Below are positions 525-56,458 of a stretch of 64,000 nucleotides of DNA, piece by piece. Position numbers and translations under genes: made by a program. The DNA is taken from contig JAVTLE010000017.1 of NCBI GenBank assembly GCA_033439295.1, forward strand, positions 1,240,001-1,304,000, read 5' to 3'. The notes under the pieces are model-generated. The model searched no databases. It had not been told where the DNA came from and worked only from the letters and a program-made list of their open reading frames with translations. Every line of letters begins with the position of its first letter. Position 1 is the first letter of the stretch. This DNA comes from Deuterostichococcus epilithicus (Eukaryota > Chlorophyta > Trebouxiophyceae > Prasiolales > Stichococcaceae).

Positions 525-3500
525 GTGGCGGAGATGTACCGCGGCATCACGGCAATGAACCTATCGGACACCCTGAAGCGGGAGCTGGGAAAGCCCATGG
601 CGGCACACCTGGGCATCAAGGCGGGCCTGTTCACGGGGCTGACGTTGCGGCATCAGGCGGAGGTGTTTATAGAGGACGATGAGTGCGGCCAGCAGATCGC
701 GTGCCTGCAGGCGCGTGTTTGTGTTTGGCCCCACCCTGTGTGAGTGCTGCCTGCATCTCGCTGATCCACCGTTCGCAAGAGGAATGGATAGTAAATTCCA
801 CTTTCCCCTTGCCAGGGAATGGGAGCATCAGCTCCTGCTGTCCTTGCCGTGCGCCGGAGGCGCAGCGGGTGCTTATGGTGGCGCGGCTTGTGACTTTAGG
901 TCTCCAGGCTTGACGCCCTAAACCCCAAACGTCCCGCTGCATGCACCCTCCGCAGGAGGCGCAGCGGGTGCTGGAGGCGGCGCGGCGCGAGGGCACCGGC
1001 TGGGTCAAGGTCGACCGGGAGCTCATCGCCAAGGTGGACGAGGCGTTGGCCGGCATCGGCGGTGCGCTCACCAAGGCGGAGCGCGAGAACAGCAGCCTCT
1101 ATTTCCAGGTGCCTTCCCGTGACCTCGAGCAGGCTTTGCTCTGCTTGGCTTTAGGAGGCTTGGGAGTGCATCTCGGAGGGGGAATGAACATGGGGACGAG
1201 ATCCTGAACGGGATTGTGCCGACCCTCAAAAAGTCAGAAGGCAGGAACGACAGCCTCCACAGCATTGGCTGCCAGCACAGGCGACAAAACGCAATTGCAA
1301 CTGGAAAAGGATTAGCCGCAGTGGTGCGAGCGTGTCAGAATTCATCCTTTCGGGTGATAAGCAATATATCATGGGGAATGGATGCAAATGTGGAGTAGGC
1401 CGCTGCCACACCACAGCTGCTGGTACCGTGTGCACTGCAACTTTCCTGGCACCATGCGCTGAATGTCTGTTCAACTCTGCGGTTGGGCGGTGCCATGCCA
1501 TTGCAGTGCGCCGCAGCATTGCCCGCCGCCACCTCGGAGTTCACTGGCGGTCCAGTTTGCATCGTTTCAGGACATGTAATACACTCTGAGGCACATTGGA
1601 GCATCCGCAGAGCCCACTGCCAAGGCTCTCGGCTTTGTAGCAGAATATTCAGTCTGCCGCCCAGCAGTCTGCAGCGCTCATCCTGTCCTGAGGCAATCCC
1701 AGGCTGCGCCGCCGTGTGCGGCGCATGCTGCCGGCTTTGCATTTGGCGCCACCACCGGCCACCGCTCGTTGTGTCTGTGAATTCCACATTGGGCATGCGA
1801 TTCCAGGAACAGCGAAGCATTCTGGAAAGTTGCACTTGTTGCGCTGCCAGATTGCAGTGCGTGACGCTGGCTTCGGTCCTGTGAGTGGCGCCGCCGGCGC
1901 CCGCCTCACTGATGGATCCTGTGCAGCCACTGGAACTGTCAATGGTGGCACTGATTCTCATCATGCGCCCTGCCTCTGTTTGCAGCGCGTGCCGCCGGCG
2001 TCGGACCTGGCGCCGCCGGCACCCGCCTCGCTGGTTGCGCCGGTGCCGCCGCCGGAAGACCTGGAGGCAGTGGACGACCGCTGGTTTGGCTTCCTGCAGA
2101 ACGGTGAGGCGTTGCTGCTGCGATCTCTCATCCCTGCTTGACCATCCCGCAAGGCGGGGCAGGTTCTGGGTTCAATGGTGCCCGCTCGTTACTCTGCCCT
2201 GTCCGCCTGCACGCCCCTTGTGCGGGGCCGCTGCAAGCATCTCCGGTGCACCCGGTGGGGTCCAATCTGCAGGACGACATGTGGTGCGCAAAATCACGCT
2301 CCAGTCGCTGAAAGCCTGTGGTGGCAGGAAGCGGGTGCTTTCAAGGGCGGCCTAGGCCTTGAAGCCTGGGTGCCGTTCATAAAGCTGAGCTTCCTGCCAC
2401 TTTCAGCCATGAAGGAAAAAAATAGAAGTGGGGAACTTTCCAATTATTCGGCTTCGCATGTTTTCTGGCCGCTCGCCTGAGCCACAGGACGATGACCGGC
2501 TACATGCAGTCAACCTGCTTGGGGCAGGGTGAGCAGTTCAACGCGCTTGGACGCAATTTCAATCGTCTCGTGTGCCCTGTGCACAGCCGGCGCCATCGCG
2601 CAGGACGACCGCAACCGCAACGCACGGTCAGCCTACATGGGGCAGGGCGACGCACGGCCGCAGGCGGCGCCGCAGCCCACCCCGGCGCAACAGCAGGCGG
2701 GCGGCGGCAGCGGCGTTGGCGGCTCCCTTGGCAGGTGTTTCCTCGACACCACACTGTTCAGAACCAGTCGCCCGAGTGCATTCTGTGGGCTGGGTGGCAG
2801 GACGTGCATGCTTGACAGCTGGGAAGAAGGGGGCGTGGACTGCCAGTCTGGTCCCTCTAGCCGGAGCCACAGCAGCGCTGCCGCTGCTTGAAGTGTCCAG
2901 GCGTACCACGGTCGTGCACAACAGCCCTGCGGGCAGGTCTGCTTCCTTGTGGAGAGGCAACAATTGTGGCAGTGCGTCACCAGCAAGACCGGGTGTCGGG
3001 CAGGCTGCATACGAGTGCATGACTCGGTCAGCTTGCCGTGGACGCAGTCGGGCTAAGTTCGGTCGTCAGTCCACGCTGAGGAGGCGTGCATGCAGCACAC
3101 ATTGTTCCTGCACGATCGTACCAGTTGCCTGCATAGCTGTCTGTGCACTCGCTGCTCCATCAATGCTCCCCGGCTGCCGCAAAATGTGTTGGCATCGGCA
3201 GCGCTTGCTGCTGTGTGCTCCTCCTTTTTCGGTGGCAGAGGTTTCAGCCCCGCGGGAGCGGAAGGGCGCAATGCAATCTCATGGAAAGGCGGTTTCTCAA
3301 TGCAAAAAACCCAGCAGATGGCTTACACCAATCGAAGTCTTTGCGTTCTGTGCCGGTCGCCATTGGCGTCACACAATGCTCTCCCTGGGCTCGGCCAGAC
3401 CATTGACTGCACTGCATCGACTTGCGTGCTGCGGCGGCAGTCGGTGCGCAGTTCAGGTCGAATGCGATTGCGAATCCTGGGATTTCTGGTATCAATCTGA

Positions 3501-6500
3501 CCCTGTGCTCGGCCTACCTGCTGTTGGCACGGTGTTGTATTTGGGGCCATATCGTCCATCGCTGCGGGAAAACCCACCACACTCTACTCCTTGCCGCCGC
3601 CGCCAGGGTTGTGTCCGATGCAACGGCCTCCATGACCAGGGCTGTGGACGCTGCTCGGCCTCATTTCTTTGACACAAACATGCTGACGCAGCTTATCTCC
3701 ATGTGCCACCAGGTTCGCATTTGGTGCCGCCAAGGGCGTCGCGGGCTGGGCCTTCAACCAGGCTGTGGACGCCATTGCGGACGGCGGCGGCCCCCGCGGC
3801 GGCGGCGGCGCTGCCGGCCGCGGCGGGGCAGATGCCAAGTCGCGCAACATTGCCGCGATGTACGACGCCCCGCAGACGGTGTCCATTGGCGACCTGTTCT
3901 CGTCGTCGGCTGCCGCGCCCGCATACAGCAGGTATCGCTTCAAATACATCCAAGCTCTCTGACGAGGACTTCAGGTGAAGGCATGGGCAGTTTGAGCATG
4001 AAAATCCGCAGCAGTGGTGTCCATTTGCGACCTGTCTTCGTTTTCGTCTGCTGCCACTGCGCACGGCAGGCCGGTCTTTGACTCCAACCGCTGTAGTCTC
4101 TGTCACAAGGGGTTTCGGAGTCCTCTAACGTCTATCTTTGACGATGTCAGAGGTCGCAGGCTCATATGTATGAGCGAACTCGATGCCACTACTCTGGAGC
4201 ACATGCAGCTGCCTGACATGCTAAAGCCTTTCTGCACGTGTACAGCCGAAACGTCTGAGGTTTCCTGTTAGTGTGACCAGCAGGCATGAGGCCAACGACG
4301 AGCAGCAACTGGCCGCATAGAGCTGGTGTGACTCTTTCAACCAGGCTATCAACCGAATCGCAATGTCGAAGCAATGTGTCATCAAACTTGTAGGCGTGAC
4401 AGCGGCGGCAAGGACCAGCGTGTGGACGCCGGGAAGTATGTGCAGCGGGTGCGGGACCTGATCAACCAGTCCATAGACCGCATCGCCTCGGCGGACCGGG
4501 AGCGGGAGTCCGTTCTGGAGCGCCTGCGCCTGCCCGAAGCCCTGGGGGTGCGCCGCTTGCTGGACCTTTGTTTCAGTCTTATACATCTTATTGTTGGTTA
4601 ATATCCAAAACAAACCTAGGCATGACAATCGGCGGACAGGGGGGGTGGGAGCCCGTGCTGCAGCGGCTGTGCCGCCCGAGACGCTGGACTTTGGTGTAAG
4701 TGTCAAGAGATGTGTGTTAAGTTGTTACGCTGTTGCTCCGAGAGCAGGAGTCTGCTCTTATCAATTGGAGGCCCGCTTTGGGCAAGAGTGTGAGCTGCAG
4801 TGGCTGCGCCTGCCCAAGGCCGTGGGCGCGTGCCACCTGCTCTCTGCTGGACGTTGGACGATCCCTGTGAGCATTACTTGCCCTCTTGCTTCGTTGCCTG
4901 GAGCTTTGCCAAGCTTCAAGGAACTGTTCGCCGGCACAATATTACTTGCGGTGTGTTCGAAACCATTAGCTACCGTCAGCACGCCAGAACCAGGGTGCGC
5001 TGAGCTCGTACAACACATAGCGACACGTTGTGACCGTCTCGCATCCAATGGCAGATGCACTCTGTGCTGCACATGATGCATGAGGCTTCTGACTAGGTCT
5101 CAAGCTCAGGATGCTGCGGCATCTCATTGTTGTGGCCTCACGAATGACGGCCTGGTGCATGTTGGCCTTGTGCATCTTGGGACGCGCAATGTGCATCTGC
5201 CATTGGGTGGCAGAGGGTCACAAAGACAGCGCTGTGTGGTGTAGCTCAGCGCACCCTGGGTTTTGGGGTGCTGACCGCAGCAGCTCGCGACGTTCAGCAC
5301 CTTGTCGGCGCAATGGTGGACAGCAGGTGCCGGACGAGCTGGGCCCAGAGATGGCAGTCCCGCGATTTTGCGCAGAAGCAGGTGGACCTGGATTGGAGTG
5401 TGACCAATCATATCAAAACTGCCTCGCATTCAACACACACCAGACTGATGATCGCTCATCCCGCAGGCAACTGGACGGCCGGGTGCCAGGGCGGCGTTGC
5501 CACACGATGTGCAAACCCCTGCGGACGCCCACCAACCCTGGTTGAAAGCTGAACCCTGCACTACTTGCCATGCCGCTGGTTGTGACGATTCTCTGTGCGA
5601 CACAGGCACTGGACGAGTCGGGGGCTGCTGCGGCGCTGCCGCAGGACGTACAGAAGCAGGTGGATGCGCACCGGCGCGATGGCGGCGTGCAGCATCTGGT
5701 GCAGCTGCTGCGGGAGATTTCGGTGCGTTCCTCTGATGTGTGGTCTTCCAAACTATTTTCCTATGATCCATGAGCTCGGTGGTGTCACCGTCGATCGCGA
5801 TCTCACTTAGCTGCCACTCGACAGGTTTGGTGATGGGGCGGTTGGAACAGCGCAATGGCGGTGTGCAGCGCCTGGTGCAGGTGCTGCAGGACACATCGTA
5901 AGTTTGTTGACGTGCAAGACCTGGTTGTAGGTTCCGCCGCGGCGTGAGCCTGTGGGAACCAGACGTGGGCGTGCCTAAGTTCAGGGTTTGACGCTAACGG
6001 CTTATAGTGCAGCCGTGAGGCATGTGAAGGTTCCAGTTGCTGTAGCAGTACCCGCTGCATTGGGAGCGCACTCGGCAACATTGTCGAATCCCTACCAGTC
6101 TGCAGCATTCACACATGCTTCTCCACCACTCTCGGATGACATGACGGTCAATGCCTCTGGCAACTGACACTGACGGCAGCAGGCTCTGTTAGCTCTGGCA
6201 GCTTGGTCTGCTTCACATGGTCACAGTCATTGGTGTCATTGGCCACGTGCGCATCCGACAGCGGAATGGATGGACGTTGGGACGCATGCCTGTATGCACC
6301 AGTGGTCTGTCCTGGTACGCAGGGGGCTCGAAGGCTCCAGCCCACAATTGCTGCAATGCAGTGCATTTGAGCGCATACATGGCCTCGTCGGTCCATGGTT
6401 GAACAGTCGGCAAGAGGTGCGGCGAGAGACCACACAAACCCTGGAGCCTGTAGCTTCGTAAGAGCAGAAGGCGGGTTATGTTGGAGCTGCAGACGGCTTT

Positions 6501-9500
6501 GCTGCTGTCCTAAGGGTCGCTGCCCTCTAAGTTTCCTTCGTCCATTGCAGTTTCTGAGGTTGTGGGAGGGCGTCGCGCGGGGCCTGGAGTGCTTGGATGT
6601 GTAGCTGGACACGACCAGTCAATCAGAAGAGCAAGCACTGATACTAAGTGCTCACTGTTAATGTCCTGAATCGCGGTTCATAGAATTCGACAGGGACATG
6701 TGTGGATCCTGGTGCGAGTTGTGGCGCCGCCAGGCGCCGAAGCCAAGGCGGACCAGGCCGGTGACATATCAGTGGTCCTCCGCCATTTTCTCACCTCTTC
6801 ACAGGAGATGCGGGAGGGAGCCGTGCAGAACCTGGAGCGCGTCGTCGCGCAGCCGCACACGCTCGACCGCAGGCATGCTTGCAGCGTCTCATGTCCCTTT
6901 CCGGTGGATTCCACAGGAGGTGCGGGAGGGGGTCGTGCGGCAGCTGGAGCGTGTCGAGGCTCAGCTCGACGCAGAGGCACAGGAGGACGAGGCCGCGCGG
7001 CGGCACTACGGCGGCGGCGCCTGGCCGCTGCAGGACGCCAGCATTGTGACGGCCAACCTTCGGGACCGCATCGCCGGCTACAAGTGAGACATATGGGGTT
7101 TAGGCTGGGCTGGGCCGGAGTCGTCTGAGCCGTGGGACTCGAGTGCGGACGTATGAGGGTGCTGAGCTGCAGGCGCAGGGTCACCACTGTCAGAGCAAAG
7201 CATATGAATCTTTGAGGTGGATTCGTGCAGTGCGACTGCGTTACAGCGGTGAAACTGTGCGGGTATGGATGGCTAACCATACCCGCACAGGGCCATTCAT
7301 GCCCGCAGGTTCAGCGGTGGTAATGCAGTCGTACAGTGACCGCAAGCTGCAGACGCTGGTGGCGACACTGCAAACCCGATGCTGCAATGCAAGATCATTC
7401 CTGACTCACGCTTTGCGTCTGTCCCTGGCTGTGCAGGCAGAACCTGCAGGAGGCGGACAGCAGCGACCGCAAGCTGCAGGCGCTGGTGGACGACAATGCA
7501 GAGCAGTTTGCGGCGCTGGGCCTGGGCACGCTGCCTGGGCGCTCTGGCGGGCAGAAGGTGCGAAAACATAAACAAACGAAACTCTAGAGGCCTCAGCTGT
7601 CTGGTGACGTGTGTGTGCTATGTCGGAGCAGTCAGCGGCTCACTCGGCTTCGGCATGCTATTGGAGCGCCGCCAGCCAGAAGGTGCGGCAAGGTGTGTAC
7701 TGCTGTCACCAGATATGCTAGATGAGCAATGCGGCAGTTGGTTGGGGACCCCTCAAGTATGCACCATGTGCACACATCGCGGCATAATCAGCATTGCACA
7801 CTCAACATCGATGAAGACGCCTGCATTGACTTTGCGGGGGGTGATTCTCCACTGTATCACTCTAGTGTGGGAGCAACTTGACTGCACCTCCGACCTCACA
7901 GCACCATCTGTGTGGCGGTCATCCGTGCTGATCGCCCAGTCAGCCAGGTGCTGGCACCTGTTGGACAGCAAAGCGATCTTGATTGCGGTTGCCATGCAGT
8001 TGGTGTTGTAGCAGGTCAGGAGGGTGTTGCTGCGTACAGGGTGCGTCAGTCCATCTCAGCTGCTGTGTCGCGGAGCATACCTGGGGCGAGGCAGGCACTG
8101 ATAGAGTATTTATATCCTAATCACCCACCAGCTGGATTCGATGGGCGAGGACTTGGTGCATTGGTAGTGCTGCGCAGAGCTGCACGGGCAGCTGGGGCCG
8201 GCGGCGGTGGCAGATTACATAACGGCAGAGCGGCCTCAGTCTTGATGTCTCCGGGCCGATCCTAAGATAGGGTGCAGAGACGCAGGGCGGTGTGCGCTTG
8301 ACCGCGGCAAGGTAGACACTGACCAGCATTCTGGAAGCCGCTCAGATCTGGGGGCCCTCAGTGTTGCAGAGACATGGAAGCGGCGGCGTGGTGGCTGCCG
8401 TGGCATGCGCGCGCTTTGAACCTGGGGAGTCGGCTCTGCTTTCAACACGATGAATGCAAAATAAACCACTGGGGCCGATCTTCAAAGGCACTTCGATTGT
8501 TCCGTAGAGTCGCGGCGGCGACGTCGTGGCTGCTACGGCAGGCGTGCGCTCAGACCTCGGCGAGGCGGACGCCCTTGCGGACGAGCGGCGGCGCCTGCAC
8601 GACGCCTTCAAGCAGCTCTGGAACGAGGACCAGATCGTGCAGGTGGGGTCGTGTGTCGCCGCCGCCTGTGCGACTCTCTTTAGCTTGTGTCCAGAGGCAC
8701 CCTGCAGTGCACCTGTTCCCAGGCCATTGGCCGGCCAATGGGCTTGGGTAGCTGTATTGCACGATGCCTCAAAGTAGCTTTGGAACGAGGCCCACGTCAT
8801 GCAGGCGCGCAGGCTCTGGCCACCATCAGCAACATGTCATCTTTGCACTGTGAACGCGCTTCCCTGCAGAGCAGCTCGAAGTTCGCATGCCCTCACATCG
8901 GCCGCTTGTCACAGTTGCCGGAGGTAGCACAACAGCTAAGAGTGCAGCCCCGATCACTGATCTGGCGTCGCATCTTTCCAACCTGTGCAGAGTGAGCGGC
9001 ATTGGCAGCTTGCTCAATTGCAAATAGCCATTGCAAATAGCCATTCGATTGCCCTGCAACCTCACGGACAAAGGCTTGCTACTCTGGAGTCGACACGAAC
9101 GACAAACGCATGTCCTCTTCCAGTGTGCTCCGCGGCAGCGCATGCAGTGGGAGCTGGACCAAAGCTGCCACAAGAACTTCCACACTTACATTCAGGCGAC
9201 TCCCCGTTCCTTTCCTGAGCACTTCATCCCTTTGTGAACCTGCAGCGCGGCAGCGCGCGGGCGCAGTGGGAGCTGGACCAGGGCTTCCACAAGTTCGAGG
9301 ACCTGGCAGCAGCCCTGGAGCGAAATGCCTCAGCGCAGTCCCAGGCAAGCCCGTCGCCGTTGCTCTTCCATTTGGGGTTGTAACAAGAATTGTCAGGGAC
9401 AAGGGCACCCTGCCATGACAAGCCGCTGTCAGTGACGGCTTGCCACCCAGCTTCCGCGGCATGCTTGGTTCGGCTGCTGCTGGGCAAAATGCATTGCGAA

Positions 9501-19303: not shown

Positions 19304-19304
<1 letters not shown>

Positions 19305-37464: not shown

Positions 37465-40400
37465 GTAAGTTCATTCCAATGTCCATTAGTGTGTGAACAA
37501 CCGACTTCTCCCCTGGGTGTTGCTGAACGTCCGTACCAGGATGAAGAACTGATTTCTCCCGTGGGTATTGCTTAACGTTTGCACCAGGAAACAGGCGGAC
37601 AAACGTTTGCCGCTGTGTGTGTTCACCACACCAGGACTGGCCTGCAAGCTCCTGCTTCCAGAAGCCGCAGCCTTCCTCGGCTGGCACTGGACAGTCTGGT
37701 GCTGGCGCGCTTGCATGCCGTGCCTTCAATGCCCATAAGTGTGGCACACTGTGCATTCATGACCCGCCCCAGGCTCTGCGCTCGAGATCAAACACCGACT
37801 CACGGGAATGCCTGCGAACCCAGCTGGGTCATCCTGACAGCCGTTTGCTGCGGTTGTCTGGGCGCACACTTGCTCAGATCCTCCAGGTTGGCGCAATCTG
37901 TTAGGCTCTGCCCCTTGCAGAAACATGCGGGCTCTCGCCGCGTGCAGCTGCGCCAAACTGAAGGACAGCATCAGATGCGCGCCTGCGTGCGTGCACCTCG
38001 GTGGCAGTCATGGTTCCGTGAACAGGGTTGCAGGCCTTTTCAGAGCCTGTGTGTAGGCGACCGCAGAGCCTGGCAGGCTGCATCGATCTGGAGGACCTCG
38101 GAATCTGTGCGCCCTGCGGCCCGCACTTGGCGGCAGGCATGATCCTGCAAGCAGGCGGTCTGTGTGCCTCTTCATTAACTCTGTTTGCGCCGCAAGCGCA
38201 GAGCCTGACGGGCTGTGCCGATCTGGAGGACCTGGGCATCTGCGCCCCTGGGTGCCAGCACTCGGCGGCGGCGCCCGCCGACACCGCCTTCCCTGCCTTC
38301 CTGCGCGAACGGCCCGCGGTGGGGTGTCTCTTGTTATTCGATTTCTCAAAGACTGTCCAGTGAACACGCAGCAGCAGCGGCGCTGGTGCAGTGGCCTTGG
38401 AAAGCATTGCAGCACTGCTCCGGCGCGGGTCGCAGCTTGCGTTTGAACGCTAGCAAGGTCCTTTCGTAGTTTGAGCCCACCCACAGTAGACTCAAGCAGT
38501 CGACTCAGATTCGTGATTGTGTGGCCGTCAAGTTGACGCCTGTTTGTTTGTTGGGGCTGTAACCAGGCTGACATCAGCCGGGACGGCGGCACGATGTGGC
38601 GGCGGCCGAAGTCGCTGGCCGAGCTGGCTGCCGCCGTGGAGGGCGTTGAGCCCGGGGACCTGCGAGTGCTGGCAGGTACACTGCTCTTAGGCAGCCACAC
38701 TCTTAGACAGACCTTCATGGCCATGTCGTGCACGTGCACGTTTGCAGAGGCGGCACGCAGCAATCCTGCCTGCCACAGCCGCCACAGCCGTGACGCCTTC
38801 CACGGCAACGTGTTTCTCGTCCGATGCCGCGATGAGCGTGCTGTCCCAGCCGCCGCCTCACATGGCAGATTCCACTGCAGTGCGTACAGAACAGACCCAC
38901 TGTTGCGTGTGCTGTTCTTGTGTCGACACCGGCGGTGGCATCTGCAAGGAGACCCGGCCAAGGAAGTCTGTTTTATTAAAACATAATACTCCAAATGAAG
39001 GCCAGATAGATATGAAGTACCTGATCGCGGTGTGCCGCCATCCTTCAGGCAACACCGGTGCCGGCATCTACAAGGAGACCTGGCCAAACGAGGCCGTCGT
39101 CGTGGATGTGCGCAGCATCTCGGAGCTCAACTATGTCCGTCGCAGCCAGGTGTGTCCATGTGCCACAGCAGTTCACCCCCAAGACAACTTCATGGAGGAT
39201 TCTCTTGCGTGTTGTGGGCATGGTCCATGCAGTACATGCCTTGCGCGGGGGCTTGCTAGGACAAGCTGAATTGCCGGGTTCCGCAACATCGGGTATACTT
39301 AAGCAGTAGCGTCAGCAAGCAGCTGCAATGGGGCGCCGAGGATCAAACTGGTCCACCATCTGACGTGTTGCAAATCGTGCTATAGAGAGCGCTGGAGGTG
39401 GGCGCGGCAGTCACGCTGTCGGGCCTCATCGAAGAACTGCAGCGCGGCGATGTATCCGAGGGCGGCGCGTGGCGTCACATGGCGGCCCACCTGCTGCGCA
39501 TCGCCGGTGCGATTGTCGTCGTGAATGCTGACTTTTGTTTCCAAATATTAAGAACTCATATGGTTTCTTTGCCCCTTGGATCTGCTCACACAACACGACA
39601 CCCTACCGACACCCGACACCCTATGAGCCAGTCGCTCAGCAAGCATTGCAGTATGTGCCAGATCTTGCCTGCAGACGGCCGCATTGAGTGTGTCAGATAC
39701 GCGGCAGTCTGCAACTTGCGCCAGGGCGCAGGGTCGGTCTTTTGTCTTGCGTGTGTTGTGCATGCACCGACAGGCATGTTTGTGCGGCGGCTAGCTTCAA
39801 GACTGTCTGGCTGGCCCCCGCCAGACGTAGTGGTGTCACCCTCGTCTGGAGAACATCCAGCGGCCTGTGTTGAAGTGGCGCACAAACTATGCTGCGAGTA
39901 CCACTGCTTGTCTGACCCAGGCCTTAACAGTCCCGCTCTGTGATTCGCTTTTAGTGCATTGGCACTTGCAGGCAGGCACATGCGCAAATTGCACTGGCAC
40001 TGGCATTTCGTCCTGTCAGATCGCTGCACATCATCTCACAGCTCACAACACATGACAGCATCGCCTCCCATGACAGCACTGCCTCCCATTGCAGGCAAGC
40101 ATGTGCCCGATGCTGCCATCGATGGCGGCACCCTCGCCCTGGCGCAGCAGCGGCGCCTGACTTTCTGATAGCCCCAACTTTTCTGCTTCCGTACGATGAC
40201 TCTGCTTGCGCAGGCACGCACGTGCGCAATGCCGCGACCATTGGCGGCAATCTGACGCTGGCGCGGAGCCGGGGACTGGAGTCAGACTTGGCAACCGTGC
40301 TCATGGGCGCTGGAGCAACTGTCAATTTTTCGGAGCTGGCGGCGTCAACGGACGGCCATGACACCAGGTGTGACGGTGAAACGGCAGCAGAGTTACCATG

Positions 40401-46400: not shown

Positions 46401-49400
46401 CACGCGAGAGCTGGGCGCCCCATCGGCTTTGGCAGGGCGGTGAGCAGTGTTTGGATTTCCCTGCTTATTGCCTTGTATCCGATTGGCTGTCCCTTTCCCA
46501 TTTTACAAACACGCAGCTTGTGTTTCCTTCATTGGGGGAACAGCTTGGCGTTCGGTTGTCCCAATGCGCTGTCGGCGGTGCTCATCAGCAGACGTTTAGA
46601 GCCTGTCTGAGCCCCTGCAGTCAGCGCTACTAGTCAATGCAGAGGCGTGCAGCTGGCCACAGCGCTCTTTCTTCCTGCTCCAACGCCCTCGTCTGCCTGC
46701 ACTGATCTCTCATACTAGTATTGGCTCTTTTGTTCTCGCAACAAAAAAAATCAATCGTTGAAAGATCCGTCTTACTGGGCTCCCAGGTCAAGGTCGTGTG
46801 CCGCCGCCTGGGCGGCGCCTTCGGCGGCAAGAGCTCGCGTTGCCTGCCGCCCGCCGCCGCGGCGGCGGTGGCGGCGACCGCACTCAAGAGGCCCGTCCGC
46901 TACGTGCTCAACCGCAACGACGACATGCGCCAGAACGCGGGTGCGCATTCTGGGCTTTGTCGTCTCGTCCTCAGGTCAGTTGCATTGAATTCTCTCGGCT
47001 TTTGAGGGAACAACAGAAGCCGTACTGCCTCCCCCGCAGGCAGATGCCCCGTTGCATGTGGAGTCGTGAGCAAGCATTCATGCTGTGTGGTGGACCTTGT
47101 CTTTGCCAATTGGTCGAGGTTCCGCATTGGAGACCTCGTGCCCGTCTCGCACATGTCTGCAGGCACATGCTCCTCCTGTCATCGACCGCTGCGCAGACCT
47201 TCCTAGGGCCTGATTTGGCCTCAGCCTCGGAGTGGCGAGCCACTGCCTTTGTGTCGTGCAGGCCGCTGCACCACGGAGATCACCTACGATGTCGGCTTCG
47301 ACGATGACGGCCGCATCAAGGCGCTGCGGATCGACGGCGCCATGCTGGCGGGTGCAGTGCAGGACCTCGCAGGCGACGACCTTGCACTTCTGAAATCAGG
47401 CGCAGACATGGTAAGTGCTTGGGCGTTTCTGTTATCTGCCAGTTTAATACAAGTTGAACCTCCACAAGAGATAAACTTGTGAGGTGCTATGTTGGCGGAC
47501 GTGGTGGATGATATGGCCGGCAACGGAGTCTCGCTTTTTCGGATCTCGCACTAGCCTATGGCGCCATTCGGTGCACGGTCCAGCTTCATTAATGCAAGTT
47601 TCAGCTTTAGGAAGCTCGTTTGATGAGACAACCGCTCTCAATCTGGGCGAGCGCATTCCAGGATCCGGCAGACGATGTAGAGGTTCCGGGTCTAGCCTGA
47701 GGCGTGTGAGCTTGGTGTCTGTGAGTCACAGCTTTCTGAGCTTGCCAGGGCCTTCAAGTGGAAAATGTCTCGGGGCTCTGCTTATATGCAGCGGCCTAGT
47801 GATTGCCGCAATGCAATGGGGTCTGATCCACCGCCAAGCAGGCCGGCTGGGCTCTCTGCAGGATGTCGAGCTAACACCAGCGGTTCAAAGTCTGCCCTGT
47901 ACGTTGCGGGCAGGCTTCGAACTGGCTGATTTCTGCTCCACTCCTGCTGGCAGATGCTGTGATGCGCTCCCAATACAATCTCGATCCAACTGCAAGCCGC
48001 TTGCAAGTTCAAGCAGCGAATTGAGGTCACCGACATACCTGGCGGAGCCTGGTCGCTGGCCTGGGACACTTCGTGCGTGTGAAACCCTGTCCGCGAGGCC
48101 TGCGCAGAAGCAGCCACCAATGAAACAGTCCGACCTGCCGCTGCTTCGCAGCGCGCCAGAGTGTGCGATAAAATATACGTCCATAAACTGGTGTTTTTCT
48201 GGATGTGCAGCTCGGAAGCTGCGACTGGCGTGCACAGACTTGTGACACTGAAAGGCCAACCATCCGGGTGACTAAAACATCTCTGGGCTAGAACCGAGAG
48301 CATGTCCATTCGTGTTGTCTGCCAGGCGCATGCGGCTCCAACGCAGTTGAGGGGATGGTGGAGCTGGCGCACTCGGGTTTTGCTGCTGCCCTGACTGCCA
48401 TCCATCCCAACAAAATGAAGCTGGCGTGTGCACACCTGCGTGCGCTCAACCGCGCATTCGGCTTCACTGATACATGATCGTGCACTTATGCAGGCGCACG
48501 CGATTTCGGCTCTGAAATTCATGCTGAAGTAGCGCCCGCCGACACGCCGCCATGCACCTTCACAGTCGCAGTGTCAGCCGCCAATTTAGACCTCTCAAAA
48601 CCCTGGCTGCAGGCGTATGCGATCCCGGCGCTGGAAGTCAAGCTGAAGCTGGCGCGGGCGGACCTGCCGCCGCACACCATCATGCGAGGCCCGGGATACC
48701 TGCAGGCCGTCATGGTCATCGAACAGGCACGTTTCTGTGTTCGTTGAAACGAGGAAATAATGCACTGAACGTTTGTACTGCTGAGGCCGCACACCATCAT
48801 GCAAGGAGCTACCTACAGGCTGCCATGGTCCTCGAACTGGTCGATTTTGATTTTTGTTATCTACGTTAGGACATGTCGCATTCTGCGGACTGAGGCTTTG
48901 CTGATAATGCTGCCGAGGCAGCTGCTGAGGCGCCTCTCCAGGCAGCTTCGCAGCGCTGCACTCAGGCAGCTGCGCTATGGTGCTGAAAGATGGTGTTTCC
49001 GTAAAGGCCCGGTTTGAATGAGAGTCTTGAAACTTGCGCTGCGCCCCCCACTGGCACAGCTGCTGATACTCACTGGCATCTTTGCTGGAGGATGGTTTGG
49101 TGCAGGACATGTGGTAGTGGAGGGCAGCAAGCAATCTGTAGCAATCGCGAACCCCCTGTCGATGTTGCATATGTACATGGCCGCGTCGCATGGCCTTGCT
49201 GCAACTCACTCGCTGGCTGGCTTCGGAGGGAATCGAGATACCATTTTCCCCCTAAGCTGGCGCTGTGACTCGACAGGGCCTGAGCGCACATGTTGAAGTC
49301 CTGACCCCAGCTCCAAAATTGCCATTGCGAGCTCCATTGAGCAGACCTGGGTGGTGGATCTGCCCACTCCTCACGAAGGCAGAACTGCTGTGGCCCAGCC

Positions 49401-52400
49401 ATGAAGCAGGGATGCAGGCATGCTGCCGGACACAGCTCTCGAGCGTCGCTGCTCGTAGTGACACGACCCACTTGCTGCAGATCCTAGAGCGTGTGGCGGG
49501 GGAGGTGGGACTGGGATCTTGGGCTCGTGAGCAACCACTGCTACTACTGCACCCTGTGCTCGTGAGTAAGCACCACAACCGTTATTCGCTGAACAGCTTC
49601 GCTAGCATTCCTGATGTTCACTCCGTGCACAGATTCTGGAGCATGTGGCGGCAGAGGCGGGTCTGGACCCTGCGCTCGTGAAGCAGCGCAATTTCATCTC
49701 CGCGCCCGAGCAGTGCCAGCCGGACCTTTTTGCGGACTCGGCGGCGCCGAGCAGTTGCAGCGGCGCCCCGGCGGCCGGCGGCGGACCCGAGTCGGACGAA
49801 TCGGCAGGCGGCGGCGCCGCCTGCTTCCCGGTCTTCAGTGTCGCGGCGGACGGCACGCCGGAGGCGGTTCCTGCAGCGGCAGCAGGCGCGGCGCCGGCAG
49901 ACGAGGCGGGCGCGGGGGACGCACGCGGCGCTGTGGCCCGGCGGCCGTGCTTCGCCGGGCCGGCAGCCGGACTGGCTGAGGGCGAGCAGGTCAGGCACAA
50001 AAGCAGAAGCATTAGGTTGCCTTGCCTGTCGCTGTCGTGCTGCACAGGCGGCGGTCGTGATGCCCGGCTCTGGAAGATCGCATCGCTAACCTCACGGCAA
50101 TCGCCTCCAGAGTGAGGCCAGTTCACTCAGAAGAATCGCGCTGTCTTGAGTCGTGCCTGATCATTGCGGTGCGGATCGCATCGAGTCGATGCGTATTGTT
50201 GTGGCATTGTATCCTAAACCCTGACGGGGTGCTGGTGCCGGCCTTGCACAGGTGCTGCGCACGGCCCAGGGCAAGTGCTTCAAGGCGTCGCTGTTCACGC
50301 TGCCCCGCATCTGGTCGCAGATCCAGGTGTGCTCTGCAGACAACCTGTTGACATCAGAATTCATCTACGAGGCGAACAGGCAGCCCTAGCCTTGCGCCAA
50401 GGTCACATCGACCTGTGCCGCTGCAAGGCATTGCGCAGCTGCGAGCGCCGTTCTACGCGACCACTCCGCAAGGCTGGCTGGGGCGTCGGGCACTGCCGGC
50501 TGATTGCTTTAATGTGTTTGGCGTCATGTGGAACTTGTCCTGCTGCTGCAGGAGCAGTCGGACTTTGCAAGGCGGCAGCAAGCGGTGAAGGACTTTAATG
50601 CAAAGAACGCCTGGCGCAAGCGCGGCATCGCCATTACGCCCTGCAGGTATATTTGACTCAGTCATAAAAGCAGCAACAGCAACAGCAACAGCAGCAGTCC
50701 TTGCTGAAGAGATATGGGCAGGTTGCCCTCTTGCGGCCGCCGCAGAGCGTCCTCATGAGCGTACTCTTGCGCACATCTGCAAACATGTGACATCTCGCAG
50801 ATGCATCAGCAACAGTGCGACGATCAGAACCGTCCTTTTGTGGCCTCGATAACATCAGCCGTTCTCGCCGTCTGTGCTGTGCGCCAGATGCACGCAGGTT
50901 CTGCTGCAGTTTGCCGGCCGTCGTGGGCAGCGTGCCATGAGTCGGCCAATCACCAAACTGCCGTGCACGGCAGCGTGCCAACAATTTGCCATTCACCTGC
51001 TGAGCATCTCACTCAGTGCTGTAGCCGGCCAATGCTTGAAGGTTCCACTGCCGGCCATGTCGAGCAGCGTACAATGAACTTCAGTTTTTCAGTGACTGCT
51101 AGGTCATCACTCATCACTGTCCATTTTCCTTATGCATGTAGGTTCGACTGCAACCCGCCGGCAATGTCGGGCAGCGTGCACGTGTACGCTGATGGCTCCG
51201 TGCTGGTCGCGTCCGGTGGTCTGGAGATGGGGCAGGGCCTCTACACCAAGGTCAAGCAGGTGAGAAGTCAGCACAGATCGATATTCATCAGGTTGTCCTG
51301 CATTACATATGACTCTGTGCTGGGCGTATCTGATGGGCTAGAGATGGGCATTGCCTCTGCACTGAGGTTCAACAACTGCACTTGATAAATAAACTTCGTT
51401 ACGAAGGTCTGTTGCATTTCTTGTGTTTGACGCCACAAATTTTACCTACTGTCTCTGGATGAGAACGGCACCCTGTCACTGGCGGCAATTCGAAAGGCAC
51501 GCCATTGTCAGCACCGCCTGCATCTCCACAGCCAGTCGCAGCTAACCGAGACAACCGCAATGGCCTAAGGGTTTACGCTCGTAGACTCCATCTAGCCTAG
51601 CACAGCGAGCCTACTTTACAGCCGGTGGCAGGTACAAGCACTCCAAGAGAAACACTGCTGCCGTGGCGCTATAAAGTCAAACAGTGTGCAGTTTGCCGCC
51701 ACCGCCAACCATGGCCCGACCTACATGGGTCTCTTCACGGGTCTCGGGTCGTGAGCTGGTTCTGTCTCTTCCAGGTGGCGGCGCACGTTCTGGGCGGGGC
51801 GATTCCAGGCGGCGGGCCGCTGCCGCTGGCGCGCATTAAAGTGGGCGACACCGGCAGCGATGGCCACCCTGGATGCGGAGCCACCTGGTCGTCCACCGGC
51901 TCCGAGGGCGCCTGCCAGGTGAGCCGTCTTTGCTGAACACTTTGGCACAGATACACTAATGTCGTATATGACCATCTCGGCTGCGGCGCGGCGTGCAATC
52001 TTGCAGGTCAGTTTTTCCGGTCCATGTAGTGGGAACAAGCAGAAGAAAATCCTCAACAGCAGTGGCCGGCTGCGGCGCAACTTGGTCACCCACCGGCTCC
52101 ACGGCAGTCTAGCGTCCCTGCAATCGTCGTTGCCGCTGTTGCAGCCACGGTTGTGCCTTGACCGCCCGGTGATGCGTCGCTGCTGCAGTTTCGACAATGC
52201 AAAAAGCCTGCTGGATTGCTTGCCAGCACTGGCAGGCCAGGAGAATTTCCCCTGGCTATGGCGCCGCCTGGTGCTACGTGATTCGCTGGAATAGCACAAA
52301 GTTCCCACAAACGGAAAGGCTATCCTCGATGCTGACCCCATTGGCGGTCGTTATGATGGTGCTTCGGCTGCTCTGCGGATCTCGTAGCTCTTCTGTGCAT

Positions 52401-55400
52401 AGGTTGCCGAAGCACAATGACTTCGTGGTCCTGTAAAGCTTGTGCCGGGCCGGGGTCGCAGCTGATAATTTGGGCAAAGTGGCCTCATAGTCGTCTGCTT
52501 CAGGACTGGCTACCTCCTGCTTCGCGCAGTCCAGACGGCTGAGATGCTGCAACATATGTGACGGCTATGGTTCGATCTGCTGCGCATGGCGCGTCGGTAT
52601 ATCCAGTCCTGAAGCAGCGGTCACTTGCTGAAGCATTACCGATGGCAAACAATAGTGGGCCTATGCTGCTATGGCGCACTGCCAGACGCAGGCTCGAAAA
52701 GTGACAAGTCTTGGCCGCTCCCTAGCCAGCTGTGCTAATGGCAAATTTGATGGCCGTGATGGCCATGAAGCAGGCACAGTGCGGCGTGTCATGCGCGCCG
52801 CTTGATGGCTCTCCTGCGGCTGCAACAAAAGTGTGACGACACGTGTGCGCTTTCATCAAGTCTGAGCTCAATGTCCTCTTATGCAGGCGGTGCGGCTGGC
52901 ATGCGAGAAGGTTGTGGGGAGCCTGGATCTGGTCTGTCAGACTGCGAGTATTGGTACCGTCTTCAGACATGAACTCGTACATCCTCCATGGCTCGCAGGC
53001 AGTGCGGCTGGCGTGCGAGAAGGTGGTCAAGAGCCTGGCGCCGGTCGTGAAGGACGCAGAGCCGGGCGCGAGCTGGAACGACATCATTGAGGCGGCGCAG
53101 GGCGACGGCGATGGCTTCACGCCCACCAAGGTAATCTAACTTCCTCCGATACCGAAACAGACACCGAATGTTCGGCCTTGCAGAAAGCTGTGCAACACAT
53201 CTTGGAGCCGAGGCGGCGCAGGGCGATGGCGACGGCTTTGCGGTAACAGAGGTTTGCGCTGCGGCCGGCTCGTGGCCTGACAGATGGGCATGCCTTTGTT
53301 GGCGAAGGCCCCAACACCATGCTGACAGGTTGAGGCAGGCTCCGCAGAGAGCAGTTGGCTTGGCATCATAAAGAGGGATAAGAAGCTCCTGGCTGAACTT
53401 GTTGTCGTACACAATCGTCAAAGTCCCGCGGCATGGGACAACACATCCTGCTTCCGTCCCTGTACTCCGTCTTCGACTGCAGCACCAATTTCTACGGTCG
53501 AATACTATCGTAAACCCAACAGAAGCAGTTTATATCCTACCCTGAAAATGCTCTAGATCCGCAACCCGCGTTTTAATTTACCGAAGACTGCAACATCCTC
53601 AGCAGCATCATCACAGCTGTTCCTGTAAACCCACTTCATATCGAGCTCAATGAGCAGAGTCGTGCATATGTTCATGCTGACCCAGATTTGCCGTGCAGGT
53701 GTGCTCGAGCATGCCGGTGTGGTGGTCAGCTTGCCAGGCGTCAGCAACGCTGCCAGAATGCACCACAACACATGGGCTCGACTCAAGGCCTGTCTAGGGT
53801 TCTGGTGGCTGCGCTGTTCATTCATGGCTCCGCTGAGGGTTTTATCTGCCTCAGGTTTGCAGGAGCGCGCTAGCATGGTGGAACGGGGTGACGTTCGGCG
53901 GCAAGGATGCCGCCATAGAGAACCTGTCCCATGTGGCCTTTGGCGCACGATTCCTTGAACTTGTCCATTCACATATAGGTTTCATCATTGTGCAGGGGCG
54001 CCTGAGCACGCAGTCGTCGGCAAGCAGCTGTCCTGGGTGGCATTCTGGGAATCAAATGAGAGAAGTTCTGGGCTACAAGTCTGTTGTCAGAATTCGTTTC
54101 TTCTTATTGTCCGGCAGGTCTGCATGAGCGCGCTGGCGTGGTGGGACGGCTCCGCGGTCGGCGGCGATCAAGCTGGCAAGGAGCAGCTGTCCTACGTCGC
54201 CTTTGGCGCAGCCGTCTCCGAGGTCGAGGTCGACGTGCTGACGGGCGAGAAGCTGCTGCTGCGCACCGACATCCTGTTCGACTGCGGGCACAGCCTCAAC
54301 CCGGGCATCGACATCGGGCAGGCGCGCCTCGCCTGGCGTAAATCTGACTTCAAACGTGCACCGTGTCTACAGCCGCTCGACGGTTAGGGTTGTTGCCTGT
54401 GCGTTGCTGAGTGGAGCAGGAGCAGGCGGCCTGCCGCGCTTGTGTTGCGTGACCCCTGGAAATGAAAACCCGAAGGCCCAAATGCAAAAAGGAAAGGTAG
54501 GGCATCTCTATTGCACATGCATGGTACTCTGAATAGCCAGCGAACTTTTGCTGTATGCTGTCGCCTGTGCTGGCTGTGCGAGCAGGAGTGCTTGACATGC
54601 ACCCCGGCACCGCTGGCGCCGGAGACAGGTACCAGCCCATGAGCATGGTCCCGAACGCGCCCCGATGGGCCGGTCCACAAATGCTCTACCGCTTTCATGC
54701 ATGACATTCATCTGCACGAACGTCCGAATCCACCGACTGTAATCTGCAGTGCAGATCGAAGGCACCCTTGCTCCTTCGTGCGGGCTGGGCATGCGAGGCA
54801 CTGGAGCAGGGGCCCCTTGCCGCCCGACGGCTGCGTCCAAATAGAATCGATTTAAATCTCTTTTACACCTTGTTTCATCTGGTTTCCTTTTTCGCAGGTG
54901 GAGGGCGCCTTTGTGCAGGGCCTGGGCATCCAGACCCTGGAGCAGGTGGTGGTCGCGCCTGATGGCCGCCTGGTGACGGAGGGCACCTGGCTGTACAAGA
55001 TCCCGACGCCCGCGGACGTGCCACGACAGCTGAACGTGACGTTCCTGGCGGTAGGTTTTACCGTACTTTTTTTGTCTGAGTATTACATCGTGACGGAGGG
55101 CACCTGGCCGTACAAGGTCTGGACGCCCGCGGACATGCCGCGGCAGCTGAACGTGACGTTCCTGACGGTGAGATCTGGAGAGTAGTCCTGCTTCCTTTGC
55201 AGACTCTCCTCATCTTAGTGTGGCATTGTGACGGAGCGCGCCTTCAGATTCAAGATGCCGAGGTCCGCAGACGCCGATGTCAGGGCACTTAGCCAGCGAC
55301 GTGTGTTGTATGTCTCGAGCAGTCGAGCAGGGCGCCCCTCCCGCCCGCGCTTGTAGGAAACGGCTGCCAATGATGGGTGCAGATGGCGCGGCGCAGTCCG

Positions 55401-56458
55401 GGCCCACTGGGCTGCCGCTGCGCTCGCTGGCTGCTCTCCTCGGCTAGGGCTAAGCCTGCCTGACACATCGCGAACCGGTCCACCTGACACATCGCGAACC
55501 GGTCCACCTGCGAAGATTGCAGAAAGTAGAATGGGCCAAACCAAGTTCACCCTTAAGGCGATGCTGCGTGCGGAACCGCCGCATGCGCACCCGCACCCGA
55601 CTGCGCCAGGCCGGGTACCGAATTTTGTTTGTTTCTACCTTTGCACGACTCGCCCAACCCCGCGCGGGGGGGAGGGGTTCCGCCGCGAGAGGGGGGGCAT
55701 GGGAGCAGGGCTGCCAGCGAGCCGTGCCTCGTGCTATCCACCAGTGTGACGGGCACTAAACCCTATCTGATTTGCGCCGCGCAGAACTCGCCCAACCCGA
55801 AGGGCGTCATGAGCAGCAAGGCGTCCGGCGAGCCGTGCCTCATGCTGTCCACCGGCGTGCTGACGGCGCTGCAGAACGCGGCCGCGGCGGCGCGCGCAGA
55901 GTTCCCGGGCTGCACCGGCAGCGGCGGCGGCGGCGGCGGTGCAACACAGGTGCAACCGCAGCATCGCTGTTGCTGTCAACGTTACAATCCGGAAGTCGAT
56001 TGACTGAGAGCATCCTTTTGCGCGGCCCCCACATACTGTCGGCAGCTGTGTGCCTGCTTGGCCACTCCACAGAGCTCGTGGATAGCTTCACGCCCTGTGC
56101 TCTGCCTGTTCGAGCCGGCTGCCACAATGCTAGGTCACCCGGCCTGCATCACGGCACCGGGACTGCGGGCGACGGCAGGCCCAGGTCCAGCGGTGCTTGA
56201 AGCATTGCTTGACCAATAGCACTGGCACACACCTGCTGGCTTCCACCGATCGTCCTGCCTGCCTTGACGCCCCAGGGTGCCTGGCGGGCTCTGACGGCGC
56301 CGGCGACGACTGTCAAGCTGCGCCAAGCAGCTGGCGACTTTTGCGTTGCCGATGTCCTGGAGGCGGCGCTGGATGGTGGCGGCGCCGGTAGCGGTCAGCA
56401 GGGCAGCGACAGCCCGGCGGCAGGGGCCTCCAGCGACGGCAGCTGGGAGGTACTGTGA
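35767..56458 (+). CDS. AO: Plant-type molybdenum-cofactor aldehyde oxidase
   Basis: Aldehyde oxidases oxidise aldehydes to acids (in plants abscisic and indole aldehydes) through Mo-cofactor, two 2Fe-2S clusters and FAD, passing electrons to O2. Thirty-two exons join in one frame over 20.7 kb (1456 aa; plant enzymes about 1350). Order: CGEGGCGAC and NSC (cluster I), QCGFCTPG and LCRCTGYRPI (cluster II), LAGNTGAG and ATIGGNLTLA (FAD), ASGEALYTSDI, SQQHFYMEPQ, LGGAFGGKSS, RGPGYLQ, GGLEMGQG, LFDCGHSLNP, VEGAFVQGLG and ASGEP with the catalytic Glu. Serine follows GGAFGGK where xanthine dehydrogenase has Glu, and the linkers match plant AO, so this is AO rather than XDH. Exon 23 has a ~90-residue Ala/Gly insert. 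Four donors are GC. Substrate unknown. Confidence 0.95.
37465..37745 (+). repeat. Intron-only duplications in aldehyde oxidase intron 4
   Basis: Two tandem ~50-bp units (about 37502-37598) share ttctccc-tgggt-ttgct-aacgt and accagga. The intron's first ~25 bp (ccaatgtccattagtgtg) recurs near 37726. These copies contain no known exon sequence, so the duplication process is not limited to exons. Confidence 0.7.
38061..38145 (+). repeat. Echo of aldehyde oxidase exon 5
   Basis: It keeps an acceptor-like cgcagagcctg-c-ggctg and then gatctggaggacct against the real exon at 38202-38318; about 80 percent identical by eye. Confidence 0.85.
38925..38985 (+). repeat. Echo of aldehyde oxidase exon 7
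   Basis: acaccggcggtggcatctgcaaggagaccc copies acaccggtgccggcatctacaaggagacct at 39052, in direct orientation. Confidence 0.82.
39957..40170 (+). repeat. Two echoes of aldehyde oxidase exon 9
   Basis: Copies at 39957-40035 and 40080-40170. The second parallels the real exon for ~75 bp (gcaggcaagcatgtgc against gcaggcacgcacgtgc, then atcgatggcggca). It keeps an acceptor but breaks frame. Confidence 0.85.
40668..40800 (+). repeat. Long echo of aldehyde oxidase exon 10
   Basis: About 130 bp parallels nearly the whole of exon 10 (40826-40934). It begins acaggaccgcatccgt against gcaggactgcatcggt and includes gaccttctgcg against gaccggcgtcag. It has an open frame for much of its length. Confidence 0.78.
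41148..41480 (+). repeat. Echoes on both sides of aldehyde oxidase exon 11
   Basis: Acceptor-side copy at 41148-41215 (gtaggtggcgcggcgc against gcaggtggcgcaacgc). Donor-side copy at 41402-41480 (tggctgacgtgcgggt and ggccacttcga, then ttggtagcatgc against ttggtaagctgc). The real exon is 41244-41367. Confidence 0.87.
42481..42650 (+). repeat. Two echoes upstream of aldehyde oxidase exon 13
   Basis: Copies at 42481-42545 and 42588-42650 of the cagctggcgaggctgttggg region (42720-42739). The second begins with cgcagctggcgcgactgctggg. Confidence 0.75.
42898..42990 (+). repeat. Echo downstream of aldehyde oxidase exon 13
   Basis: It keeps ctgccggtagagaagcatgctgtgcgtctgcag against ctgcctgtggagaaggacgctgtgcggctgcag and stays open in frame (LPVEKHAVRLQ against LPVEKDAVRLQ). 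Confidence 0.9.
44933..45370 (+). repeat. Four successive echoes of aldehyde oxidase exon 18 start
   Basis: Four direct copies of the first 45-75 bp of exon 18 (45431-45567) with their acceptor side lie one after another: about 44933-45000, 45034-45110, 45232-45300 and 45308-45370. All keep a gacagaa/ggcggac-gag-accc-g motif in different states of decay. This is the densest echo array in the window. Confidence 0.85.
45750..45935 (+). repeat. Two echoes upstream of aldehyde oxidase exon 19
   Basis: Copies near 45750-45805 (ggtggcggtgctggaagagggcgg) and 45879-45935 (ttgcagcagccggcgatgccagacgagggc) of the exon start gcaggctgcagtggcggtgccggacgagggcgg. A donor-side echo follows the exon at 46182-46230. 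Confidence 0.82.
47478..47565 (+). repeat. Echo downstream of aldehyde oxidase exon 21
   Basis: gtgctatgttggcgg and ccggcaacgga...ctcgc parallel the exon end gcgccatgctggcggg...caggcgacgacctt; moderate similarity. Confidence 0.6.
48488..48845 (+). repeat. Echoes on both sides of aldehyde oxidase exon 22
   Basis: Upstream copy 48488-48565 keeps tgcaggcgcacgcgat and gctgaag. Downstream copy 48780-48845 keeps ccgcacaccatcatgc and gctgccatggtc. The real exon is 48613-48726. Confidence 0.88.
49478..49535 (+). repeat. Echo upstream of aldehyde oxidase exon 23
   Basis: gcagatcctagagcgtgtggcgg copies acagattctggagcatgtggcgg at 49630, including the acceptor and first 14 codons. Confidence 0.85.
50668..50697. 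repeat. CAACAG-type microsatellite
   Basis: Runs of agcaac/agcagc units just inside aldehyde oxidase intron 25. Confidence 0.8.
50891..51078 (+). repeat. Echoes upstream of aldehyde oxidase exon 26
   Basis: Copies at 50891-50945 and 51033-51078 of aggttcgactgcaacccgccggcaatgtcgggcagcgtgca. A donor-side copy follows the exon at 51300-51365, keeping gctgggcgtatctgatggg and gagatgggca. Confidence 0.88.
52052..52115 (+). repeat. Echo downstream of aldehyde oxidase exon 27
   Basis: It keeps tggtc-cccaccggctcc-cggc near the exon end tggtcgtccaccggctccgagggc. Confidence 0.65.
52874..52965 (+). repeat. Upstream echo of aldehyde oxidase exon 28
   Basis: An acceptor plus AVRLACEKVVGSL against the real AVRLACEKVVKSL. 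A donor-side echo lies at 53191-53255 (gaggcggcgcagggcgatggcgacggctt). Confidence 0.9.
53688..54060 (+). repeat. Three echoes upstream of aldehyde oxidase exon 29
   Basis: Copies at 53688-53750, 53868-53972 and 53994-54060. The middle one covers ~100 bp and still reads ...LSHVAFGA against the real LSYVAFGA. Confidence 0.85.
54764..54835 (+). repeat. Echo upstream of aldehyde oxidase exon 30
   Basis: It parallels ggcgcctttgtgcagggcctgggcatcc and ctggagcagg at 54903 onward; moderate similarity with a lost frame. Confidence 0.7.
55078..55180 (+). repeat. Near-intact second copy of aldehyde oxidase exon 30 end
   Basis: About 90 percent identical to 54972-55056. It translates VTEGTWPYKVWTPADMPRQ against VTEGTWLYKIPTPADVPRQ, with its own donor (gacggtgaga). 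The 27 bp between the two copies is open in the same frame. A third, weaker copy follows at 55216-55290. Confidence 0.93.
55459..55506. repeat. Perfect 24-bp tandem duplication
   Basis: Two exact adjacent copies of a unit beginning cctgacacatcgcgaaccgg in aldehyde oxidase intron 30. It looks like a very recent event. Confidence 0.9.
55640..55748 (+). repeat. Echo upstream of aldehyde oxidase exon 31
   Basis: It contains actcgcccaacccc and gcgagccgtgcctcgtgct-tccac, corresponding to the exon's actcgcccaacccg and gcgagccgtgcctcatgctgtccac, with G-run insertions between. Confidence 0.88.

Follow-up and report, generated by a model that had tools for sequence, protein, structure and literature searches.

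Decaying copies of exon edges within the adjoining introns of three genes of the green alga Deuterostichococcus epilithicus

Explanations of how introns lengthen have relied mostly on transposons and on isolated, rare occurrences. Duplication of exonic AGGT in tandem as a route to intron gain was reportedly described by Hellsten 2011 and by Gao and Lynch 2009, and paired-nick and rice work reportedly also revealed small tandem duplications at DNA breaks. The nearest relative of the mechanism proposed here is the potato RdRp case (passages of PMC4974935), in which a tandem unit likewise spans the border between intron and exon and one copy has become partly intronic; it is, however, a single case in which a new intron was made and part of the upstream copy stays exonic, whereas at the present locus the outer copy would have been absorbed whole by the old intron, many times and with a preferred unit length. 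Passages of one review (PMC3443670) list tandem duplication as an intron-gain mechanism with 188 events, and the AGGT duplications treated there share with the present case the concealment of one copy by splicing, but they turn the unit itself into a new intron, whereas here existing introns would have grown. Novel intron positions in Drosophila, ascribed to sliding or tandem duplication (passages of PMC2891723), also involve duplicated exonic sequence of which one copy is intronised, but they concern new positions in few cases, and serial arrays are not mentioned in those passages. Introner elements, which passages of PMC9860276 place chiefly in fast-evolving lineages, green algae among them, similarly produce large changes in intron content, but resemble one another, whereas the copies described here match their own exon only and have unlike spacers; no introner-type family common to several of the scored introns was found. 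A mutational source of short tandem units, with insertions below 100 bp, is provided by staggered-break small tandem duplications, which are shown in mouse and human cells in passages of PMC8355091 that do not link them to exon borders. No earlier account in which introns lengthen through serial copies of exon edges was found among the best-ranked entries of the openly licensed literature, and the passages of the Coccomyxa genome paper (PMC3446292) that deal with introns, exons, tandem sequence and repeats make no mention of exon-edge copies.

The DNA analysed, hereafter the window, is a stretch of 64,000 nucleotides (positions 1,240,001-1,304,000 of its contig) from a genome of 46.8 Mb in 21 contigs. 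An rbcL gene on contig C21 of this genome finds its best matches, along its entire length, in the solved Rubisco large chains 8q04 and 1gk8, from Chlorella and Chlamydomonas respectively, which most likely marks the genome as that of a green alga. Gene models were produced by a purpose-written splice-aware gene finder, self-trained on this sequence, over a sample of 281 kb made up of the window, a 40-kb block, 17 further loci of 10 kb each and two short ones; the models contain 48 genes with at least two exons, 513 exons (predicted median 123 nt) and 465 introns (predicted median 273 nt, 168,885 bases in total). Lenient first models without an exon penalty were dropped for penalised ones. The predicted borders agree with those of the original prediction (first exon at 525; last exon ending at 56458, or at 56449 after retraining), and the models do err, with three doubtful exons past 56449 in the oxidase gene and at least four window copies retained as exon. 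GC replaces GT at approximately 13.8% of predicted donors in the 281 kb (13.4% in earlier models), which seems high for a eukaryote. Copies of an exon start in the upstream intron are termed UP echoes and copies of an exon end in the downstream intron DN echoes. Exons were compared with their own introns in a first set of 363 introns at a score of at least 32, with length-matched non-flanking introns as controls, and in the larger set of 465 introns by an edge test at score 30; a loosely scored exon-intron alignment, in which own introns and controls barely differed, was replaced.

Copies of exon edges exist in the adjoining introns, as had been claimed from a first reading of the window, and two of the checks suggested at that stage agree. 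Chunked self-comparison of the window yielded 57 direct pairs of at least 28 bits, whereas three block-shuffled versions contained 0, 1 and 1; inverted pairs in the window numbered 35. Within the 363 introns, the upstream exon produced 25 matches and the downstream exon 38, against an expectation from non-flanking introns of approximately 0.3 per side (approximately 0.6 in all against 63), and reverse-complemented exons matched their own introns once and twice on the two sides, which bears out the claim that the copies follow the orientation of the gene on both strands. The edge test detected 80 same-strand echoes (50 upstream and 30 downstream) in 60 of the 465 predicted introns, one or two of which would be due to chance by arithmetic from a score-30 control of 0.65 per side of 363 introns. 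All 43 window echoes passing this test lie in the 67 predicted introns of the three genes named in the original prediction, with none at score 30 in the nine introns of the other two window genes; four more window copies were treated as exon by the gene finder, and the remaining 37 echoes fall in 389 introns outside the window. Among 114 pairs less than 500 bp apart in the window and the 17 loci, 82 were exon-intron, 21 exon-exon, 8 intron-intron, 2 intergenic and 1 exon-intergenic, compared with 36, 7.5, 44, 21 and 4 in the same order when the annotation was shifted.

Weaker echoes lie below the detection threshold. Among the 321 upstream edges without a detected echo, 10.9% exceeded the 5% mark set by permuted exons (p =.02), and the downstream signal was significant at lags of 90-145 (p =.0001) and 145-200 (p =.0014) but at no other lag range in the permuted-exon test. 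By estimate, such hidden echoes would be approximately as numerous again in the window as the 43 detected, and the figure of about 66 copies first proposed for the three genes is therefore plausible with hidden echoes included, although not each copy is demonstrable. As to the claim of up to four copies per exon, exon 24472-24573 has four further family members (80, 77, 74 and 69% over 35 nt), two of which pass the edge test. The echoes and genes of the window are listed in Table 1.

Table 1. Predicted genes with echoes and individual echoes in the window. UP, copy of an exon start in the upstream intron; DN, copy of an exon end in the downstream intron.
Feature	Positions	Strand	Distance (bp)	Identity (%)	Remarks
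BRO1/ALIX-like gene	525..11175	+			14 predicted exons, starts before window; 11 echoes in 13 introns
UP, exon 956-1108	857..887	+	99	87	
UP, exon 1986-2103	1859..1935	+	128	80	
DN, exon 3713-3931	4016..4055	+	138	89	
DN, exon 4394-4547	4629..4687	+	141	81	
DN, exon 4394-4547	4795..4826	+	280	81	second echo
DN, exon 5606-5722	5850..5891	+	176	86	
UP, exon 6917-7083	6805..6853	+	112	80	
UP, exon 7437-7557	7334..7372	+	127	92	
UP, exon 8508-8642	8380..8433	+	135	74	
DN, exon 8508-8642	8758..8804	+	162	81	
UP, exon 9246-9344	9131..9174	+	115	89	
TPR gene (TTC27-like in the original prediction)	20782..34482	-			19 predicted exons; 12 echoes in 18 introns
UP, exon 20782-20926	20995..21016	-	103	91	over 22 nt
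UP, exon 23210-23447	23525..23576	-	129	83	
UP, exon 24472-24573	24647..24666	-	111	95	over 20 nt
UP, exon 24472-24573	24772..24821	-	251	82	second echo
Weaker family members, exon 24472-24573	24868-24902 and 24989-25023	-			from self-comparison
UP, exon 25590-25703	25777..25826	-	134	76	
DN, exon 27671-27753	27563..27603	-	120	78	
UP, exon 27671-27753	27916..27945	-	201	83	
DN, exon 28707-28900	28471..28540	-	240	81	
DN, exon 31154-31356	31067..31098	-	95	84	
DN, exon 32410-32602	32253..32306	-	156	81	probable; modelled as 33-nt exon
DN, exon 34218-34482	33865..33891	-	353	85	third echo
DN, exon 34218-34482	34019..34073	-	199	78	second echo
DN, exon 34218-34482	34139..34188	-	86	82	
Xanthine dehydrogenase/aldehyde oxidase gene	35767..56458	+			20 echoes in 36 predicted introns, last three (past 56449) doubtful
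UP, exon 38202-38318	37947..38005	+	265	82	second echo
UP, exon 38202-38318	38067..38134	+	135	84	
UP, exon 39049-39149	38926..38961	+	126	86	
UP, exon 40214-40367	40095..40145	+	119	73	
UP, exon 40826-40934	40710..40760	+	124	78	
DN, exon 41244-41367	41416..41463	+	96	81	
DN, exon 42706-42855	42919..42964	+	109	85	
UP, exon 45431-45567	45046..45100	+	394	73	
UP, exon 45431-45567	45244..45287	+	193	75	
UP, exon 45985-46098	45771..45796	+	217	88	
DN, exon 45985-46098	46178..46204	+	122	85	
UP, exon 48613-48726	48494..48562	+	119	74	
DN, exon 48613-48726	48786..48837	+	117	87	
UP, exon 49633-49989	49478..49530	+	152	79	probable; part modelled as 24-nt exon
UP, exon 51142-51259	51050..51073	+	107	88	
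DN, exon 51142-51259	51309..51368	+	117	77	
DN, exon 51775-51918	52068..52100	+	197	82	
UP, exon 52999-53130	52887..52934	+	112	81	
DN, exon 52999-53130	53210..53253	+	121		probable; part modelled as 30-nt exon
UP, exon 54118-54321	53855..53947	+	263	74	
UP, exon 54898-	54770..54810	+	135	85	
DN, exon ending probably near 55050	55090..55169	+	117	90	over 80 nt; modelled as exon
UP, exon 55785-55949	55689..55748	+	110	80	

Most UP copies begin at the acceptor or slightly ahead of it, most DN copies end at the donor or slightly beyond it, and the copies stand at a preferred distance from the exon. Of the 49 UP echoes of the first set, 42 have their start no more than 15 nt from the acceptor, and of its 35 DN echoes, 29 have their end no more than 15 nt from the donor; the copies contain only approximately 5 nt of recognisable intron sequence. 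The distance to the exon is 95-140 bp in 43 of the 80 echoes, and a second group lies at approximately 200-290 bp, near double; the typical unit is approximately 117 bp (the mean of 54 near pairs) and the median is 119 bp for the 53 echoes closer than 160 bp. On the upstream side, 36 of 50 echoes lie at 99-157 bp, none occur from there until 193 bp, 12 lie at 193-289 bp and 2 beyond, while 20 of the 30 downstream echoes lie at 83-176 bp. The same peak appeared in a scan over all lags with real exons but not with permuted ones. As in tandem duplication, the copies are directly oriented and their short spacing is nearly constant.

The copies decay neutrally and carried the old splice site along, as indicated by frameshifts, differences across codon positions and a decayed acceptor context. 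Exon and copy differ at.170,.161 and.252 of codon positions 1, 2 and 3 (84 pairs), the length of 38 out of 42 gaps is not divisible by three, 7 stops occur in 1192 codons, and 390 of 587 changed codons are non-synonymous; distances modulo 3 show no clear preference for multiples (32, 19 and 31 of 82 ungapped pairs with remainders 0, 1 and 2). The 41 nt before upstream echoes have an acceptor-context score of 0.27 (n = 33), between 1.04 for real acceptors and -1.17 for random intron positions (p = 7e-7 against random). Identity does not fall significantly overall with distance from the exon (rho -.13, p.24). Only 8 of the 80 copies are at least 90% identical to their exon, compared with approximately 42% when ages were simulated as uniform and large indels were left out, and the rate of duplication was therefore probably higher in the past.

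The preferred explanation, to which a probability of roughly 0.7 is assigned, is serial tandem duplication of units of approximately 117 bp across exon-intron borders, with one copy absorbed into the intron. Short stretches of DNA (main range 95-140 bp) would duplicate in tandem, and a unit spanning a border would leave the gene with two copies of an intron end plus exon start, or of an exon end plus intron start. Splicing would stay on the site that keeps the coding sequence unchanged, whereby the outer copy would turn intronic, add one unit to the intron and then decay neutrally, and repeated events at one edge would build arrays at one, two and three unit lengths. The exon part would remain recognisable longest, with the exon under selection and the intron part decaying on both sides. 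We infer such duplication events, such a choice by splicing and their time course; this mechanism, which the original prediction had also put forward, fits the distances and their multiples as well as the neutral decay, the intron lengths and the old splice context, but the detectable units cover only part of the intron length and no new intron was found. If so, the copies would preserve the course of intron growth in visible form: the exon is a preserved reference for counting the outer copies along a gene, measuring their spacing and roughly dating them, such that unit length, rate, a possible past burst and differences between genes could be measured in a single genome and tested in related strains, and many decaying decoy splice sites are predicted near the real ones.

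The intron part of the unit is where this explanation is most exposed to an alternative. In an unlikely scheme, copying would be specific to exon edges, the copy stopping at the junction with approximately 5 nt of splice site, and approximately 66 nt of new spacer bringing its own splice site, which would need a splicing-linked or RNA-guided step; slightly less likely again is its particular form in which the junction is recognised, for example via spliced or partly spliced RNA, with a fresh splice site per event and introns growing outward in steps of approximately 117 bp. Such copying would suit the collapse of the diagonal match, which in the pairs that end near the junction (38 of 49 UP, 28 of 35 DN) drops to approximately.25-.28 over the first 10-20 nt from it, and the abrupt ends of well-preserved copies, among them 55090-55169 and approximately 7353-7407 of locus L013, which are 85-90% alike with intron parts nearly unrecognisable. 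It would also suit the scarcity of independent pairs away from exon edges. Although 11 intron-intron pairs occur at lags of 70-170, compared with 0 at control lags, most are off the unit lag or part of exon-edge events, and on our reading some two remain that are independent and lie at the unit lag (in locus L017 and the TPR gene), and 40 kb of intergenic DNA held no pair at the unit lag and one at lag 35. By arithmetic, random unit placement predicts 5-27 intron-intron pairs, according to age (0.2-0.25) and indel rate; exon edges may thus be favoured as targets, or better surviving, the numbers being small. However, when anchored at the junction the flanking intron parts are faintly but significantly homologous, with a mean tail score upstream of 24.8 (permuted tails 11.8; p =.0096) and downstream of 18.4 (permuted tails 10.5; p =.0018), and against shuffled or reversed spacers the anchored comparison gave p <=.009 on both sides and the unanchored one p.01 to.14. 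The shared intron part is clear in 4 of 41 UP and 0 of 22 DN echoes, and a tandem unit including it is still visible in a few cases, such as approximately 9177-9336/9310-9469 of L013 and 3771-3869/3878-3970 of L015. Further, the spacers are unlike one another and have no clear source in the exon interior, other intron parts or the reverse strand, with only a weak excess of similarity (p.03-.08) to the remainder of the intron, to the old tail and to a few more sequences; nor is the outer flank the neighbouring exon (p.22 and.26, not significant), which removes mRNA as a source of the copies.

Simple tandem duplication was also simulated. Without large indels, tails were visible in approximately 80% of cases, whereas approximately 0.2-0.25 substitutions per site with indels of approximately 9 nt at 2-4% per base gave an identity of.82-.85, a length of 43-49 and mean tail scores of 30-45, against the observed.829, 44.2 and 24.6/18.7; identity and copy length were similar to those observed, and the tails were much weaker than in the run lacking large indels. 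Tails passing score 47 made up 19-42% in these simulations, the settings of which were picked post hoc, compared with the observed 4 of 41 and 0 of 22. An early reading of the spacer as purely unrelated sequence was weakened by the faint anchored homology and by the indel simulation. Simple duplication with neutral decay is accordingly nearly adequate, short of proof, with well-preserved copies such as 55090-55169 remaining awkward for it. A refreshment of the exon-derived part of old tandem duplications by conversion from the living exon would make that part look younger than its intron flanks, and by eye the exon-end copies of locus L002 are 95% alike with flanking tails only about half alike, and copy 7334-7372 has a worn first stretch and a well-preserved second; but mismatches are spread as by chance (dispersion 1.01 in 48 copies) and a homology of 40-80 nt is short for conversion, which make this improbable. 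Selection on the copies as functional decoys or alternative exons, to which the regular spacing and the retained splice-like context might point, is more improbable still, given the frameshifts, the like differences at codon positions 1 and 2 and the predominance of non-synonymous changes; no coding constraint as for alternative or duplicated exons was found, and the solved xanthine dehydrogenase/oxidase chain offers no place for the residues of the 55090-55169 copy. Least probable of all is a dispersed repeat family, introner elements or chance similarity, in favour of which no point was found. The excess of own-intron matches and the dissimilarity of the spacers speak against it, and the scored stretches of the window matched elsewhere in the genome in predicted exons only. 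No intron-borne dispersed family, named in the original prediction as a finding that would overturn it, was seen for the scored introns in these genome-wide searches, which leave out very common words, one of the three scored searches being weaker in that the window's own location was missing from its matches.

The detectable units account for only part of intron length. Median intron length rises from 255 in 405 introns with no echo to 494 in 43 with one and 705 in 15 with two (a single intron contains three echoes and another four), a link to be read with the greater room for matches in longer introns and with the controls being length-matched. The detectable units amount to approximately 6% of predicted intron DNA (80 x 117 of 168,885 bases), which would become approximately 14% after a 2.5-fold correction for hidden units derived from simulated detection rates. 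The proposal that echoing is the main mode of intron growth is not supported, with echoes detected in 60 of 465 introns and concentrated in some genes. Clustering by gene gave a chi-square of 171, whereas simulated values averaged 46.5 and did not exceed 94.4, and weighting by intron length reduced it to 97.7 (mean 47.4, maximum 124.1), such that part of the clustering is due to intron length. Echoes are uneven in the individual genes as well, none being present in the 20 introns of the L004 gene or the 15 of an L007 gene, as against 43 in the 67 introns of the three window genes. The signature of new introns of the AGGT type, a match at a lag equal to intron length, was found in 0 of 465 introns, compared with 2 at control lags. 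Nine matches in short introns (6 of 24 and 3 of 54) were considered as de novo intron gain and rejected, being three self-overlaps, one CGG run and five at other lags (113-188), of which three were window echoes modelled as tiny exons.

Of the three genes with echoes, the first matches Pfam BRO1 and ALIX_LYPXL_bnd, while for the second Pfam gives TPR repeats only, TTC27 being the name used in the original prediction. An 890-residue part of the predicted oxidase aligns collinearly with a solved xanthine dehydrogenase/oxidase chain, presumably bovine, with two exceptions, namely a long insert near 49633-49989 and the residues contributed by the echo that the models retain within exon 54898-55167. 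The insert in exon 49633-49989 is rich in Ala, Gly and Ser and has no counterpart in the aligned chain. An intron of the BRO1-like gene contains a long imperfect hairpin, approximately 313 nt at 4969-5281 matching their own reverse complement at 69%. A CAG repeat at 19304-19358 forms a glutamine run in a small predicted two-exon gene. Two tRNA-Val genes, with AAC and CAC anticodons, lie on one strand at 57642-57716 and 59509-59583, 1.9 kb apart, and between them is a direct repeat rich in CGTGCG/CGCACG (58720-58785 and 59039-59103, 319 bp apart).
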